This document shows, in pieces, positions 56,135 to 64,000 of a stretch of 64,000 nucleotides of DNA. Location: assembly GCA_006739055.1 (NCBI GenBank), contig AP019702.1:558501-622500 (forward strand), given 5' to 3'. How positions within the stretch are numbered: position 1 is the stretch's first letter; each line of letters starts with the position of its first letter. The position numbers and the translations under genes were made by a program. The DNA is from Allostella vacuolata. Its GTDB lineage: Bacteria > Pseudomonadota > Alphaproteobacteria > ATCC43930 > Allostellaceae. Below the pieces are notes generated by a model. It had not been told where the DNA came from. It saw only the letters and a list, made by a program, of their open reading frames with translations, and searched no databases.

Positions 56135-57529
56135 TCAGGCGACCTTGGCCAAGCCCTGGCCGGCCAGCCACGCCTCGGTCTCGCCCAGTGCCTTGTCGAA
56201 GCGCCGGAACATCTCGTCCAGCTCGTCCCCGGTGATGATCAGGGGCGGGCAGAAGCCGATCGCATCGCCCATCGCGCGCAGGATCAGGCCGCCTTCCTGG
56301 GCCCGCGCGGCGAGATAGGCGCCGACGCCAAGCTTGGGATCGAACGGCGCATGGGTCGCCTTGTCGGCGACCAGCTCGATGGCACCGATCAGGCCGACGC
56401 CGCGGCACTCGCCGACCAGCGGCCGGTCGGCGAAGCTGCGGATCCACTTCTGCATCTTCGGCCCGACCTCCCGGACATGGCCGACGAGGTCGCGCTCCTC
56501 GTAGATCTTCAGCGTCTCCAGCGCGACCGCGCTCGAGACCGGATGGCCGGAATAGGTGAAGCCATGGGCGAAGACGCCGATCTTCTCGCTCTGGCGGACC
56601 ATCGCCTGGTAGATCGGCTCCGAGATCATCACCGCCGAGATCGGCAGGTAGGCCGACGAGAGCGCCTTGGCGCAGACCAGGATGTCGGGCTTGAGGCCGA
56701 AGGTCTGGCTGCCCCACATGTTGCCGGTGCGCCCGAAGCCGCAGATCACCTCGTCGGCGATCAGCAGCACGTCATACTTCTTCAGGACCGCCTGGATCTT
56801 CTCGAAATAGCCGGCCGGCGGCAGCAGCACGCCGCCCGCGCCCATGACGGGCTCGGCGATGAAGGCGGCCACCGTCTCCGGCCCCTCGGCCAGGATGCGC
56901 TTCTCCAGGTTGTCGGCCAGGCGCGTGGAGAAGGCCTCCTCGCTCTCGCCCGGCTCGGCGAAGCGGTAATGGTGCGGGCAGTCGACATGCATGATGTTGG
57001 CGATCGGCAGGTCGAAGTCGCGATGGTTGTTCGGCAGGCCGGTCAGGCTGGCCGAGGCGACGGTGACGCCGTGATAGCCCTTGGTGCGGGCCAGGATCTT
57101 CTTCTTGGCCGGACGCTCCAGGGCGTTGTTGTAGTACCAGACCAGCTTGACGGCGGAATCGTTCGCCTCGGAGCCGGAATTGGCGAAGAACACCTTCGAC
57201 ATCGGCACCGGCGCGGTCGCCAGCAGCCGCTCGGCCAGGTCGACGCCGACCTCCGTCGTCTTGCCCCCGAACGTATGGTAGTATGGCAGGCGCCGGAACG
57301 CCGCGATCGCGGCCTCGACCAGGCGCTCCTCGCTGAAGCCGAGCGAAGCGCACCACAGCCCGGCCATCCCCTCGATGTACTCCTTGCCGGCCTCGTCCCG
57401 GATGTAGATGCCCCGGCCCTCGTTGACGACCAGCGGGCCATCCGTCTCGTGCTTCTTCAGGTTGGTGTACGAGTGCAGGACGGTCGCGATGTCGCGGCTG
57501 GCGATCGAGTTGCCGGGCGGGCGCTGCAT
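56135..57529 (-). CDS. Class III (omega) aminotransferase
   Basis: The protein is 464 residues and is a PLP fold type I enzyme. SGSEANDSAVKLVWYYNNAL is the dimer/PLP region, GYHGVTVASASLTGLP follows, then LIADEVICGFGRTGNMWG with the PLP-pyridine Asp, and the Schiff-base Lys288 in DILVCAKALSSAYLP. The sequence resembles putrescine/beta-alanine:pyruvate-type transaminases (MQRPPGNSIASRDIATVLHSYTN start, GPLVVNEGRGIYIRDEAG). It is divergent from the first of four family-5 substrate-binding proteins, so it could act on the imported amine or peptide-derived product; that is inference. Confidence 0.93.
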   Translation of the reverse strand: MQRPPGNSIASRDIATVLHSYTNLKKHETDGPLVVNEGRGIYIRDEAGKEYIEGMAGLWCASLGFSEERLVEAAIAAFRRLPYYHTFGGKTTEVGVDLAERLLATAPVPMSKVFFANSGSEANDSAVKLVWYYNNALERPAKKKILARTKGYHGVTVASASLTGLPNNHRDFDLPIANIMHVDCPHHYRFAEPGESEEAFSTRLADNLEKRILAEGPETVAAFIAEPVMGAGGVLLPPAGYFEKIQAVLKKYDVLLIADEVICGFGRTGNMWGSQTFGLKPDILVCAKALSSAYLPISAVMISEPIYQAMVRQSEKIGVFAHGFTYSGHPVSSAVALETLKIYEERDLVGHVREVGPKMQKWIRSFADRPLVGECRGVGLIGAIELVADKATHAPFDPKLGVGAYLAARAQEGGLILRAMGDAIGFCPPLIITGDELDEMFRRFDKALGETEAWLAGQGLAKVA

Positions 57530-57758: not shown

Positions 57759-59339
57759 GTGAAATCCAGATTTGCGCTCGTGGCCGCGATTGCGCTGGCC
57801 GCGCTGGCGTCGCCTGCGGCGGCGAAGACGTTCAAGTACTCGACGACCGGCGACGTCATCGGCATGGACCCTCACATCAACAACGAGGGGCCGACCAATG
57901 CGATGAAGGACCATATGTACGAGGGGCTGGTCACCCGCCATTGGGACCTGACGGTGCGCCCGGCGCTGGCCACCGAATGGACCCAGGTGAACCCGACGAC
58001 GACGCGCTTCAAGCTGCGCCAGGGCGTCACCTTCCATGACGGCTCGCCCTTCACGGCCGACGACGTGGTGTTCTCGTTCGACCGCATCCGCGGCGAGCAG
58101 TCGGACATGAAGACCTACGTCACCGGGGTCAAGGAGGTGCGCAAGGTCGACGACCTGACGGTCGACCTGGTGACGGAGGCGCCGGACCCGGTGCTGATCC
58201 AGAACCTGACGCTCTTCCACATCATGTCGAAGTCCTGGGCGCAGAAGCACAACACGCTGCTGCCGCTGCGCGGCGCCAATGCCGAGAGCTTCGCCAACCG
58301 CAACGTCAACGGCACCGGGCCCTTCAAGCTGGCCGAGCGGGTGCCGGACACCCGCACCGTGCTGGTGCCGAACGAGAAGTGGTGGGGCAAGCCCGAGCAC
58401 AACCTGACCCGGGTCGAGTTCCGGCCGATCGGCAACGCGGCGACCCGCGTCGCGGCCCTGCTGACCGGCGAGATCGACATGATGTTCCCGGTGCCGCTGC
58501 AGGACATCCCGCGGCTGGAGCGCACCGCCGGGATCAAGGTCCTGCAGGGGCCGGAGCTGCGCACCATCTTCCTCGGCTTCGACCAGTTCCGCGACGAGCT
58601 GCTGGACATGCCGGGCTCGGGCAAGAACCCGTTCAAGGACGTGCGGGTGCGGCGCGCCTTCTACCAGGCGATCGACATCAACGCGATCCATCGCGTCGTC
58701 ATGCGTGGTGCCTCCACCCCGACCGGGCTGATGATCGCGCCCGGCATCAACGGCTTCGCCAAGGACCTGAACGACCGCTATCCGCTCGACCCGGAAGGGG
58801 CGAAGAAGCTGCTGGCCGATGCCGGGTACCCGACGGGCTTCACCGTGACGCTCGACTGCCCGAACGACCGCTACGTCAATGACGAGGCGATCTGCCAGGC
58901 CGTCGTGCCGATGCTGAGCCGGATCGGCGTGACCGTGCGCCTGAACTCCCAGACCAAGGGGCTGCACTTCGACAAGATCGGCCTCAAGGAAGGGCGCCGG
59001 ACCAGCTTCTACATGCTGGGCTGGACGCCGGGCAGCTACGACGCCCACAACATGCTCTACAACATCATCACGCTGAACGCCGGCCCGGGCGCGGGCGCCA
59101 ACAACAGCGGTCGCTACACCAACCCGCGGGTCGAGGAACTGACCAAGCTGATCGGCCAGGAGCTCGACAAGGAGAAGCGGACGGCGATGATCCACGAGGC
59201 CATGAAGATCCACAAGGAGGACTTCGGCCATATCCCGCTGCACCAGCAGGCGCTCGCCTGGGGTGTGCGGGACACCGTCGCCACCATTCCGCAGGCCGCC
59301 AACGACGCGGTGATGCTGAAGTACGTCCGGATGAAGTAG
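57759..59339 (+). CDS. ABC transporter substrate-binding protein, family 5 (array copy 1)
   Basis: This is a 526-residue periplasmic binding protein of the DppA/OppA/NikA type. The signal peptide MKSRFALVAAIALAALASPA is followed by KTFKYSTTGDVIGMDPHINN. The family block RFKLRQGVTFHDGSPFTADD, the lobe segments NPFKDVRVRRAFYQAIDI and CPNDRYVNDEAICQAVVPML, and the C-terminal HKEDFGHIPLHQQALAWG follow. The GTG start has GGGAGG upstream. The typical ligand is a peptide, opine or other oligomer. It is the first of four paralogues and the most divergent in the N-terminal lobe (DHMYEGLVTRHWDL). No permease genes are in view. Confidence 0.93.
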   Translation: MKSRFALVAAIALAALASPAAAKTFKYSTTGDVIGMDPHINNEGPTNAMKDHMYEGLVTRHWDLTVRPALATEWTQVNPTTTRFKLRQGVTFHDGSPFTADDVVFSFDRIRGEQSDMKTYVTGVKEVRKVDDLTVDLVTEAPDPVLIQNLTLFHIMSKSWAQKHNTLLPLRGANAESFANRNVNGTGPFKLAERVPDTRTVLVPNEKWWGKPEHNLTRVEFRPIGNAATRVAALLTGEIDMMFPVPLQDIPRLERTAGIKVLQGPELRTIFLGFDQFRDELLDMPGSGKNPFKDVRVRRAFYQAIDINAIHRVVMRGASTPTGLMIAPGINGFAKDLNDRYPLDPEGAKKLLADAGYPTGFTVTLDCPNDRYVNDEAICQAVVPMLSRIGVTVRLNSQTKGLHFDKIGLKEGRRTSFYMLGWTPGSYDAHNMLYNIITLNAGPGAGANNSGRYTNPRVEELTKLIGQELDKEKRTAMIHEAMKIHKEDFGHIPLHQQALAWGVRDTVATIPQAANDAVMLKYVRMK

Positions 59340-59419
59340 CCGGCCGCATGAAGTAATCGGCGGACGCGAGAAGCCCCTTCCCAAGCCACGCCCGCGTCGC
59401 AATGATCTGGGGATCGCTT

Positions 59420-59460
59420 CTCCGCCGCCGTCGCCCCGCAAGGGGCGACGGCGGTCGGAG
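59420..59460 (+). terminator. Long GC hairpin between array copies 1 and 2
   Basis: CCGCCGTCGCCCC-GCAA-GGGGCGACGGCGG is a perfect 13-bp stem with a GNRA-type loop. CTCCG and CGGAG extend it to 18 pairs past one bulged base. No U-run follows, so transcript stabilisation or partial termination is as likely as full termination. Confidence 0.6.
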
Positions 59461-59485
59461 GCGTTAACAGGGAAGGGGAATCAGA

Positions 59486-61075
59486 ATGATCAGACGACTG
59501 CTCCTGACGACCGCGATGGGCTTCGTGCTCGCCGCGACCGGCGCCGCAGACGCCAAGGTCTTTCGCTTTTCGACGTCGGGAGACATCAACGGGCTCGATC
59601 CGCACCTCAACAACGAGGGCCCGACCAACGCGATGAAGAACAACCTCTACGAGGCATTGATCTTCCGCGACCATGAACTGAAGCTGCGGCCGGCCCTGGC
59701 CACCGCGTGGAGCCAGACCGCCCCCACCGTGTGGCGCTTCAAGCTGCGCCCGGGGGTCAAGTTCCACGACGGCACGCCCTTCACGGCCGACGACGTGGTC
59801 TTCTCGATCCAGCGCAACAACCACCCACAGTCGGGGATGCGCACCTACAGCGCCTCGATCGTCGATGCCAAGAAGGTCGATGACCTGACCGTCGACCTGA
59901 TCACCAAGGCGCCGGACCCGATCCTCGACCAGAACCTGCCGGCCGTCTTCATCATGTCGAAGGCCTGGGCCGAGAAGCACAATACCGCCACGCCGGTGCA
60001 GGGCATCGTCGGCAACGAGACCTTCGCCAACGTCAACGCCAACGGCACCGGGCCCTTCCGGATGCTGGACCGGGTGCCGGACACGCGCACCGTCATCGTC
60101 CCCAACCCCGCCTGGTGGGGCAAGGTCGAGCACAACCTGACCCGGGTGGAATTCCGGCCGATCGCCAACGCCGCGACCCGGGTCGCCGCCCTGCTGTCGG
60201 GCGAGATCGACATGATGTTCCCGGTGCCGCTGCAGGACGTGCCGCGCCTCAAGCGGTCGCCCGGGGTCAAGGTCCTGGAAGGGCCGGAGCTGCGCACCGT
60301 CTTCTTCGGCATGGACCAGTGGCGCGACGAGCTGAAGGACATGCCGGGCTCGGGCAAGAACCCGTTCAAGGACGTGCGGGTGCGGCGCGCCTTCTACCAG
60401 GCGATCGACATCCAGGCGATCCACCGCGTCGTCATGCGCGGCGCGTCGACGCCGACCGGGCTGATGATCGCTCCCGGCATCAACGGCTTCTCCAAGGAGC
60501 TGAACGACCGTTACCCGTTCGATCCGGACGGGGCCAAGAAGCTGCTGGCCGACGCGGGCTATCCCTCGGGCTTCCCGGTGACGCTCGATTGCCCGAACGA
60601 CCGCTACGTCAATGACGAGGCGATCTGCCAGGCCGTCGTGCCGATGCTGGCCCGCATCGGCATCAACATCAAGCTCAACTCCCAGACCAAGTCGAAGCAC
60701 TTCGACAAGATCGGCACCCGCCAGGGCAACGACACCAGCTTCTACATGCTGGGCTGGACGCCCGGCACCTACGACGCCCACAACATGCTCTACAACATCC
60801 TGATGACCCGCAACCAGGCGACCGGCACCGGGTCCAACAACAGCGGCCGCTACTCCAACCCGAAGCTGGACGAACTGACTCTCCAGATCGGCAGCGAGAG
60901 CGACCGCGAGAAGCGCAACCGGATGATCTATGAGGCCATGAAGATCCATAAGGAGGACTTCGGCCATATCCCGCTGCACCAGCAGGCGCTGGCCTGGGGC
61001 CTGCGCGACACCGTCGCGTTCCTGCCGCAGCCGCCGAACGATGCGGTGATCGTGCGCTTCGTGAAGATGAAGTAG
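59486..61075 (+). CDS. ABC transporter substrate-binding protein, family 5 (array copy 2)
   Basis: The protein is 529 residues. The signal peptide MIRRLLLTTAMGFVLAATGA is followed by KVFRFSTSGDINGLDPHLNN. It shares long near-identical stretches with copies 1 and 3 (for example IHRVVMRGASTPTGLMIAPG and CPNDRYVNDEAICQAVVPML). It differs in the probable ligand-facing parts: NPILDQNLPAVFIMSK-like TKAPDPILDQNLPA, FRDHELKLRP. The ATG at 59486 follows GGGAAGGGG. It is in the same orientation as the others and may have its own ligand range. The C-terminus IVRFVKMK matches the conserved ending. Confidence 0.94.
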   Translation: MIRRLLLTTAMGFVLAATGAADAKVFRFSTSGDINGLDPHLNNEGPTNAMKNNLYEALIFRDHELKLRPALATAWSQTAPTVWRFKLRPGVKFHDGTPFTADDVVFSIQRNNHPQSGMRTYSASIVDAKKVDDLTVDLITKAPDPILDQNLPAVFIMSKAWAEKHNTATPVQGIVGNETFANVNANGTGPFRMLDRVPDTRTVIVPNPAWWGKVEHNLTRVEFRPIANAATRVAALLSGEIDMMFPVPLQDVPRLKRSPGVKVLEGPELRTVFFGMDQWRDELKDMPGSGKNPFKDVRVRRAFYQAIDIQAIHRVVMRGASTPTGLMIAPGINGFSKELNDRYPFDPDGAKKLLADAGYPSGFPVTLDCPNDRYVNDEAICQAVVPMLARIGINIKLNSQTKSKHFDKIGTRQGNDTSFYMLGWTPGTYDAHNMLYNILMTRNQATGTGSNNSGRYSNPKLDELTLQIGSESDREKRNRMIYEAMKIHKEDFGHIPLHQQALAWGLRDTVAFLPQPPNDAVIVRFVKMK

Positions 61076-61128
61076 CCGGCGACCGCTCCCCCCCCCCCGG
61101 TGGCAGTAGGGCGGGTGGCGGCATGAAG

Positions 61129-61157
61129 GGGCGGGTCCGGGGAAACCGGGTCCGCCC
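61129..61157 (+). other. Hairpin between array copies 2 and 3
   Basis: GGGCGGGTCCGG pairs with CCGGGTCCGCCC around GGAAA, with two G-U pairs in the middle. Only TT follows. It resembles the terminator after copy 3 in its GGTCCGCC arm, suggesting common descent of the spacers. Confidence 0.45.
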
Positions 61158-61242
61158 TTGCCTTCGCGGCACGGCTTGGCCCATAGATCGTCGCGTCGAA
61201 GATGGCCGGCGGCTTCACGCCGGCCGCAATCGGGGAGAAATG

Positions 61243-62829
61243 ATGCGACGACATTTGTTGATGGCGGCCGCCGCCATCGCGCTGCTCACGGCTGCTTCCG
61301 CCGAGGCCAAGACCTTCCGCTTCTCGACGTCGGGCGATATCAACGGGCTCGACCCGCACCTCAACAACGAGACGCCGACCAACGCGATGAAGAACAACCT
61401 CTATGAGGGGTTGATCTATCGCCTGCCGGACCTGAAGCTCGTCCCGTCGCTGGCGACCGAGTGGAAGCAGACCAGCCCGACCGTGTGGCGCTTCAAGCTG
61501 CGCCAGGGCGTGAAGTTCCATGACGGCAGCCCGTTCACGGCCGACGACGTGGTCTTCTCGATCAAGCGCAACAACCACGAGCAGTCGGGCCTGCGCACCT
61601 ACAGCTCTTCGGTCGTGGACGTGAAGAAGATCGACGACCATACCGTCGACCTGATCACCGCGGTTCCCGACCCGATCCTCGACCAGAACATCCCCGCCGT
61701 CTTCATCATGTCGAAGATCTGGTCGGAGAAGAACAACACCGCGACCCCGGTGCGCGGCATCGTCGGCAACGAGAGCTATGCCAACACCCACGCCAACGGC
61801 ACCGGGCCGTTCAAGGTGGTCGACCGGGTGCCGGACACGCGCACGGTGCTGGTGCCGAACCCCGACTGGTGGGGCAAGGTCGAGCACAACCTGACCCGGG
61901 TCGAGCTGCGGCCGATCGCCAACGCCGCCACCCGCGTCGCCGCCCTGCTGTCGGGCGAGATCGACATGATGTACCCGGTGCCGCTGCAGGACATCCCGCG
62001 CCTCAAGCGCACCCCCGGCATTAAGATGCTGGAAGGGCCGGAACTGCGGACGGTCTTCTTCGGCATGGACCAGTGGCGGGATGAATCGCTCGACATGCCG
62101 GGCTCGGGCAAGAACCCGTTCAAGGATGTCCGCGTCCGCCGCGCCGTCTACCAGGCGATCGACATCAACGCGATCCATCGCGTCGTCATGCGCGGCGCCT
62201 CGACCCCGACCGGGCTGATGATCGCGCCCGGCATCAACGGCTTCTCCAAGGAGCTGAACGAGCGCTATCCGTTCGATCCCGAGGGCGCCAAGAAGCTGCT
62301 GGCCGATGCCGGCTACCCGACCGGCTTCCCGGTGACGCTGGACTGCCCGAACGACCGCTACGTCAACGACGAGGCGATCTGCCAGGCGGTGGTGCCGATG
62401 CTGGCCCGCATCGGGGTGCAGGTGAAGCTCAACGCGCAGACCAAGTCGAAGCATTTCGACAAGATCGGCCAGCGCCAGGGCAACAACACCAGCTTCTACA
62501 TGCTCGGCTGGACGCCCGGCACGTTCGACGCCCACAACATGCTCTACAACATCCTGGGCACCCAGAACTTCGCCCCGGGCGCCGGGTCGAACAATGGCGG
62601 GCGCTATTCCAACCCCAAGCTCGACCAGCTGACGCTGCAGATCGGCGAGGAGTCGGACCAGGAGAAGCGCAACCGGATGATCCACGAGGCCATGAAGATC
62701 CACAAGGAGGACTTCGGCCATATCCCGCTGCACCAGCAGGCGCTGGCCTGGGCGCTGCGGGATTCCGTCCTGTCGATGCCCCAGTCGCCGAGCGATTCGG
62801 CCCAGGTGCGCTTCGTCCGGATGAAGTGA
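61243..62829 (+). CDS. ABC transporter substrate-binding protein, family 5 (array copy 3)
   Basis: The protein is 528 residues. The signal peptide MRRHLLMAAAAIALLTAASA ends before KTFRFSTSGDINGLDPHLNN. I chose the second of two adjacent ATGs (61240, 61243) because GGGGAG then lies 5 bases upstream. It is closest to copy 2 over most of its length (QHNLTR-type VEHNLTRVELRPIANAATRVAALLSG, quoted in part). Ligand-lobe differences are YRLPDLKLVPSLATEW and the NFAPGAGSNNGGRYSNP region. A strong terminator follows, so the first three copies may share transcripts and copy 4 may not. Confidence 0.94.
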   Translation: MRRHLLMAAAAIALLTAASAEAKTFRFSTSGDINGLDPHLNNETPTNAMKNNLYEGLIYRLPDLKLVPSLATEWKQTSPTVWRFKLRQGVKFHDGSPFTADDVVFSIKRNNHEQSGLRTYSSSVVDVKKIDDHTVDLITAVPDPILDQNIPAVFIMSKIWSEKNNTATPVRGIVGNESYANTHANGTGPFKVVDRVPDTRTVLVPNPDWWGKVEHNLTRVELRPIANAATRVAALLSGEIDMMYPVPLQDIPRLKRTPGIKMLEGPELRTVFFGMDQWRDESLDMPGSGKNPFKDVRVRRAVYQAIDINAIHRVVMRGASTPTGLMIAPGINGFSKELNERYPFDPEGAKKLLADAGYPTGFPVTLDCPNDRYVNDEAICQAVVPMLARIGVQVKLNAQTKSKHFDKIGQRQGNNTSFYMLGWTPGTFDAHNMLYNILGTQNFAPGAGSNNGGRYSNPKLDQLTLQIGEESDQEKRNRMIHEAMKIHKEDFGHIPLHQQALAWALRDSVLSMPQSPSDSAQVRFVRMK

Positions 62830-62854
62830 GAAGCGACCCCACGGGGTAGCCGGG

Positions 62855-62887
62855 CGGCGGGCCGGGTGACCGGTCCGCCGTTTTTTT
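62855..62887 (+). terminator. Intrinsic terminator after array copy 3
   Basis: CGGCGGGCCGG-GTGA-CCGGTCCGCCG makes an 11-bp stem with one G-U pair. Seven T follow at once. This is the only hairpin in the array with a real U-run. Confidence 0.9.
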
Positions 62888-62894
62888 GCGGCTT

Positions 62895-62929
62895 CGATCG
62901 TACGATCGGCACGCCGCCTGCATTGCAGG
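62895..62929. promoter_or_regulatory. Palindromes upstream of array copy 4
   Basis: CGATCGTACGATCG (62895-62908) is a perfect 14-base palindrome. CCTGC-ATT-GCAGG (62917-62929) is a second small inverted repeat. They lie between the terminator of copy 3 and the start of copy 4, so they could be operators for that copy. Confidence 0.4.
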
Positions 62930-62982
62930 TTTCCAGATGACGGCCGACGGCCTCCCGCCTGCCGCAACCGGGAGCCCGCGCG

Positions 62983-64000
62983 ATGCGACGTCGACTGCTG
63001 GTGGCCGCTGCCGCCGCCCTGCTCCTCCTGGCTGGACCCACGGCCGCCAAGACCTTCCGCTTCTCGACGTCGGGGGACGTGAACGGGCTCGACCCGCACC
63101 TCAACAACGAGACCCCGACCAACGCGATGAAGCACAACCTCTACGAGGGGTTGGTCTATCGCAACGACCGGATCGAGACCGAGCCGGCCCTGGCCGAGAG
63201 CTGGCAGCAGGTCTCGCCCACCATCTGGCGCTTCCGGCTGCGCCGCGGCGTGGTTTTCCATGACGGCACGCCCTTCACGGCCGACGACGTGGTCTTCTCG
63301 CTGGCGCGCGCGGCGCACCCGCAGAGCTCGATGCGGATCTACACCCAGACCATCCGCGAAGTGCGCCGGGTCGACGACCACACGGTCGACATCGAGACCA
63401 AGGTGCCCGACGCGATCCTGCTGTCGAGCCTGGGCTATCTGTGGATCATGTCCAAGGACTGGTCGCAGATGCACGGCACGGCGGCGCCGGTCGCCGGCAT
63501 CGTCGGCAACGAGAGCTATGCCAACACCCACGCCAACGGCACCGGGCCGTTCCGGCTGGCCGAGCGCGTGCCCGACACGCGCACCATCCTGGTGCCCAAC
63601 CCGAGCTGGTGGAACAAGAGCCCGCAGCACAACCTGACCCGGGTGGAGTTCCGGCCGATCGCCAACGCGGCGACCCGGGTGGCGGCGCTGCTGTCGGGCG
63701 AGCTCGACATGATGTACCCGGTGCCGCTGCAGGACATCCCGCGCCTGAAGCGCAGCCCGGGGCTGTCGGTGTTGGAAGGACCGGAGCTGCGCACCCTGTA
63801 TTTCGGCATGGACCAGTGGCGCGACGAACTGCTGGACATGCCGGGCACGGGCAGGAACCCGTTCAAGGACCGGCGCGTCCGCGAGGCCTTCTACAAGGCG
63901 ATCGACGTCCAGGCGATCCACCGGGTGGTCATGCGCGGTGCCTCGACCCCGGCCGGGCTGCTGGTCGGGCCCGGCATCAACGGCTTCTCGAAGGCGCTGA
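62983..64000 (+). CDS. ABC transporter substrate-binding protein, family 5 (array copy 4, runs off the window)
   Basis: The first 339 codons are present; the 3' part lies beyond the right edge. The signal peptide MRRRLLVAAAAALLLLAGPT precedes KTFRFSTSGDVNGLDPHLNN. It shares family stretches with the others (FHDGTPFTADDVVFS, MYPVPLQDIPRLKR, IHRVVMRGASTPAG). It is the most diverged in the ligand region: VYRNDRIETEPALAESW, TKVPDAILLSSLGYLWIMSK, NPSWWNKSPQHN. GGGAG lies 8 bases before the ATG. The missing end is due to the window and is no sign of decay. Confidence 0.93.
   Translation, partial: MRRRLLVAAAAALLLLAGPTAAKTFRFSTSGDVNGLDPHLNNETPTNAMKHNLYEGLVYRNDRIETEPALAESWQQVSPTIWRFRLRRGVVFHDGTPFTADDVVFSLARAAHPQSSMRIYTQTIREVRRVDDHTVDIETKVPDAILLSSLGYLWIMSKDWSQMHGTAAPVAGIVGNESYANTHANGTGPFRLAERVPDTRTILVPNPSWWNKSPQHNLTRVEFRPIANAATRVAALLSGELDMMYPVPLQDIPRLKRSPGLSVLEGPELRTLYFGMDQWRDELLDMPGTGRNPFKDRRVREAFYKAIDVQAIHRVVMRGASTPAGLLVGPGINGFSKAL

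Follow-up and report, generated by a model that had tools for sequence, protein, structure and literature searches.

Six tandem family-5 binding-protein genes beside one PepT-type ABC importer operon in Stella vacuolata

Organisation of the array and its transporter

The window analysed here is a stretch of 64,000 bases (558501-622500) from the 5,834,761-base contig of Stella vacuolata ATCC 43931 (chromosome AP019702), which was obtained by 330x hybrid long- and short-read assembly (PMC6687932). Stella vacuolata is a soil bacterium with star-shaped cells. The window contains four family-5 binding-protein genes, S1 to S4, all on the plus strand at 57759-64000. The features of the locus are given below in window positions or, beyond the window end, in genome positions.

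56135-57520, minus strand: class-III aminotransferase, PRK06105-like, divergent from the array
57759-59339, plus strand: S1, family-5 binding protein, 526 aa, GTG start
59340-59485, plus strand: S1-S2 intergenic region, a conserved block and then a strong hairpin
59486-61075, plus strand: S2, family-5 binding protein, 529 aa, AlphaFold2 mean pLDDT 91.8
61243-62829, plus strand: S3, family-5 binding protein, 528 aa
62855-62887, plus strand: terminator-like hairpin after S3, 11-bp stem, GTGA loop, seven T
62983-64000, plus strand: S4, family-5 binding protein, runs past the window end
genome 623202-624788: S5, family-5 binding protein, beyond the window end
genome 624909-626492: S6, family-5 binding protein, beyond the window end
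genome 626869-627855: permease 1
genome about 627876-628802: permease 2
genome 628805-629791: ATPase 1
genome 629784-630860: ATPase 2
genome 631044-633587: hybrid histidine kinase downstream of BCDF, followed by a response regulator

A preliminary description of this DNA had placed four consecutive same-strand DppA/OppA-like genes correctly, and all four products match Pfam SBP_bac_5 (E 8e-63 to 1e-89; 213-301 bits, cut-off 32.4). For S3, the start at 61243 is better than that of the listed open reading frame, which lies further upstream at 61123. The N-terminus of S1 resembles a signal peptide without a lipobox Cys. The whole S4 protein has 529 aa and its gene ends at genome position 623072. 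The earlier count of "at least four" copies is true, and the full genome has six family-5 genes in tandem, the window edge having concealed copies 5 and 6. Full-length alignments of S5 and S6 show 66-79% identity; pairwise identity across all six copies is 65-82%.

The same description had reported an array without a permease. This was an artefact of the window edge, because the operon starts just past it: the extension beyond 64000 that had been proposed revealed two more binding genes and then a complete BCDF-type operon at genome 626869-630860, 4.4 kb beyond the window end and separated from S6 by 377 bp. All six binding genes and BCDF lie on one strand. The permeases carry BPD_transp_1 (twice) with BPD_transp_1_N and OppC_N, and both ATPases carry ABC_tran and oligo_HPY, so that two permeases and two oligo_HPY ATPases stand beside a binding gene as in PepT-type (dpp/opp) importers. 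The suspected repertoire beside one permease set thus takes the form of several paralogous binding genes, six in tandem, at one BCDF locus. The argument named against such a repertoire, a full operon with just one additional binding gene, does not apply, as the extra genes number five.

A further suggestion was a sensor role. For some copies, signalling by way of the hybrid kinase and response regulator encoded downstream, and not transport, would then be the main task. S. vacuolata, S. humosa and ATCC 35155, the three complete Stella genomes, all have these two genes after the transporter. However, PAS, HisKA, HATPase and receiver are the only domains recognised in the kinase, and the domain search recognised no binding-protein docking domain in it. 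The kinase is also less conserved (54-78% identity by segment) than BCDF (93-98%) and did not turn up in the 5.4 kb beyond BCDF on the SJ646 MAG contig; the loci of Oceanibaculum and the marine MAG likewise yielded no kinase or response-regulator gene. We therefore consider a sensor set very unlikely.

Copy number and origin among relatives

We compared the locus with S. humosa (5,832,650 bp), Stella sp. ATCC 35155 (5,339,096 bp) and the MAG SJ646. The search revealed six copies each in S. vacuolata and S. humosa, three in ATCC 35155 and at least five in SJ646, where they are spread over separate contigs. Sixty of the non-Stella loci fetched have one binding gene and the others at most two; at the matching locus, a single binding gene accompanies BCDF in Oceanibaculum, the marine MAG, Microvirga and others. 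Matches in the same order were mostly single, with two adjacent in one genome. Among the genomes and loci examined the amplification is confined to Stella, and the proposed amplification with divergence is borne out, with one or at most two genes outside the genus against 3 to 6 in Stella.

The S. humosa set consists of S1, S2, S3, S5 and S6 orthologs and an S7 type in the last place, and the ATCC 35155 set of S1, S2 and S6. Between S. vacuolata and S. humosa, ortholog identity is 88-95% and the gene order is the same. In the tree, groups S1, S2, S3, S5 and S6 each unite different species, so most duplications are older than these species. S4 forms a long branch as sister to the S5 group; the tree settles the order among the groups only in part. 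Short matches to the S7 3' end were detected just upstream of the permease in S. vacuolata and ATCC 35155. We read them as putative remnants of a lost seventh gene, i.e. of gain and loss. The examined loci offer a natural series from one receptor gene in outgroups to 3 to 6 in Stella, in which gains, losses and a presumed remnant can be traced.

Repetition of a single gene by misassembly, which the preliminary description had also considered, has nothing in its favour beyond the likeness of the copies. These differ at 18-35% of residues, the assembly was a 330x hybrid, and ordered orthologs occur in separately assembled genomes; those of S. humosa refute an artefact, the chance of which we regard as negligible.

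Divergence and selection among the copies

Ortholog dN/dS values were 0.08-0.28, and S4 compared with S5 between species gave 0.36; the ortholog groups, to which most of the copies belong, are under purifying selection. The proposed comparison of synonymous and non-synonymous change was thus informative for orthologs, whereas paralog values were uninterpretable and discarded, as synonymous sites are saturated because of a GC content of about 95% at third positions. Gene-conversion-like windows with an excess over 3% numbered 5 among 496 window positions in two genomes; they are short and scattered, and no widespread gene conversion was seen.

Paralogs are on average 61% identical in domain II (S2 63-184), compared with 78% and 74% in the remaining lobes; the domain limits are approximate and follow the OppA layout. 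Group-defining substitutions, at positions fixed within groups but different between them, numbered 22 at most 3 residues from OppA contact positions, against 11.6 expected (circular-shift p 0.008); a Fisher test restricted to within-group conserved sites gave odds of 2.1 (p 0.011). This pocket enrichment is moderate, and it relies both on aligning distantly related OppA and on contact positions that come largely from a docking study (PMC6305025). Several half-widths (window sizes) were tried and every one gave p below 0.05. Sites that vary within groups avoid the OppA contact positions. The copies thus appear to diverge most strongly in the domain that covers the ligand and near the pocket loops, in agreement with the earlier remark on ligand-lobe segments.

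Such divergence bears on a dosage array, in which functionally equal copies would have been amplified to supply more protein for one ligand. The same-strand tandem genes with their uniform length and fold are consistent with this, and binding proteins are normally required in excess of the permease. However, the paralogs are far more different from each other than the S. vacuolata and S. humosa orthologs are, group-specific substitutions cluster near pocket loops, and the homogenisation expected of such arrays is at odds with the little conversion seen. Old groups, purifying selection, little conversion and pocket divergence together argue for distinct ligand roles over dosage or misassembly, and we consider dosage unlikely.

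Fold and candidate ligands

The S2 AlphaFold2 model has the three-domain cluster C fold, and its best structural match is dipeptide-bound DppA (1dpp; Z 41.8, rmsd 2.0, 474 residues). Opine, glutathione and nickel binders follow close behind, and the fold alone therefore names no ligand. In E. coli DppA, R383 holds the carboxyl end of the dipeptide and D436 the amino end (PMC12136057). Every Stella copy retains the Arg but has Gly in place of the Asp; in S2 these residues are Arg373 and Gly427. In the rest of the 79-row alignment the Asp position is Gly, Pro, Ala or Ser. D430, which lies three positions further on, is invariant and might still bind an amine. Scores against the DppA equivalog NF043070 were 80-142 bits, compared with a cut-off of 1005. 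As curated NCBIfam cut-offs were missed and the amine-binding Asp is lost, a classical dipeptide receptor was rejected; the array proteins are probably not ordinary dipeptide receptors, because that Asp is Gly in all copies.

In single-copy relatives the transporter adjoins an M20 amidohydrolase, a prolidase-like amidohydrolase, a DUF2817 or an acetylornithine-deacetylase-like gene, and in the two nearest relatives (Oceanibaculum and the marine MAG) a divergent aminotransferase also lies beside it. We tentatively propose peptide-like or N-blocked amino acids as ligands, with somewhat less than even confidence.

Cys residues at S2 positions 369 and 381 are invariant in 52 aligned relatives and flank the conserved Arg373; they may form a disulfide next to the pocket.

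Intergenic regions and putative expression signals

The intergenic gaps of the array are 120-167 bp long and contain strong hairpins. In the S1-S2 region, the block at 59376-59407 is kept in three Stella genomes and is unique in the S. vacuolata genome. The region contains CCCCTTCCC (a CCUUCCC stretch) complementary to the GGGAAGGGG ribosome-binding region, and its hairpin has a stem sequence that varies between species and a constant GCAA/GCGA loop. No known riboswitch was matched in the leaders at three loci at Rfam gathering thresholds. The S1-S2 region may be a regulatory leader RNA.

Terminator-like hairpins comparable to that after S3 follow some S. humosa copies. A terminator scan gave 15 sites against 7.6 expected, most of them within genes or on the opposite strand, and single sites are therefore not to be over-read. 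A promoter-like block, TTGACG-N18-TAGT, precedes the permease (genome 626725-626745) and is kept in four Stella genomes, spacer included. Genome-wide it has one perfect match and one hit with 3 mismatches; with a single perfect match, an operator shared with other genes was rejected. The conserved spacer hints at an operator, and the sequence signals suggest that receptors and transporter are transcribed separately.

A shared importer as the preferred reading

The array is real and functional-looking. We read it, with a probability of roughly 75%, as a lineage-specific periplasmic binding-protein repertoire that shares one peptide/opine/nickel-type (PepT-type) ABC importer. An ancestral single binding gene would have given rise to the array by tandem duplication, with later gains and losses within Stella. 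Each binding protein would close around its particular set of small ligands, and all six proteins would dock on the same BC permease, so that one importer could take up a wider range of nutrients; the sharing of the permease by all six copies is suggested by adjacency and precedent. The ligands, the least certain step, would probably be small carboxylate-bearing compounds, e.g. peptides or amide-linked amino acids, with the amine blocked or bound otherwise. The array poses a testable question, namely how duplicated receptors split ligand space yet keep a docking surface for one permease, and a receptor family without the amine-binding Asp possibly leads to new ligand classes.

A second array (L019/L020) lies outside the window at genome 3869015-3890222. 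Its seven family-5 genes, six of which were compared pairwise (69-77% identical), are interrupted by an aminotransferase-like gene, a two-gene RND-type efflux pair and other genes, and permease genes follow at genome 3890654 and 3891609. Its copy number varies, from seven in S. vacuolata to eight clustered in S. humosa and four in ATCC 35155. A search of the whole S. vacuolata genome with the S2 protein gave 64 matching places at E <= 0.001, and the species appears very rich in family-5 binding proteins. A broader and more speculative reading, which we find doubtful, is that Stella repeatedly evolves large repertoires before single permeases, that this array binds amine-blocked or non-classical ligands, and that every receptor gene would be controlled independently, through a terminator and a leader RNA belonging to it alone, which would make the whole a modular import system of the 'swap the receptor' type.

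Comparison with known systems

The principle of a shared importer is already known in other bacteria. E. coli DppABCDF resembles the Stella locus in fold, in A-B-C-D-F gene order and in the conserved R383; it differs in its single binding gene, in D436 and in a structural-alignment identity of only about 24%. In Pseudomonas aeruginosa, DppA1-A5 (four beside the operon, one distant) are described as serving one BCDF and have distinct ligand profiles (PMC4206461, PMC12728205). Several family-5 genes to one BCDF transporter are common to both; however, the Stella copies are six and all adjacent, and the Gly-Asp-Asn amine-binding motif conserved in P. aeruginosa DppA1-5 is absent from them. The Pseudomonas locus also has a dipeptidase and a porin gene, neither of which was seen beside the Stella array.

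Borrelia burgdorferi OppA1-A3 are encoded by three tandem chromosomal genes with individual promoters and show pocket substitutions (PMC5736914). The tandem arrangement on the chromosome and pocket substitutions among copies are shared with Stella. In contrast, the amine-docking Asp, which is Gly in Stella, persists in Borrelia (Asp431 in OppA4), and Borrelia has five proteins, two of them plasmid-encoded, and two permeases, against six copies, all chromosomal, and a single permease pair in Stella. No six-member family-5 array is described in the open-access literature searched, which is no proof of absence. The Stella array is large, old relative to the species and, among the relatives examined, confined to its genus. 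Its organisation is of a known kind; it stands out by how many copies lie side by side, by its stable ortholog groups, by the lost amine-binding Asp and by the presence of two arrays in the genus.
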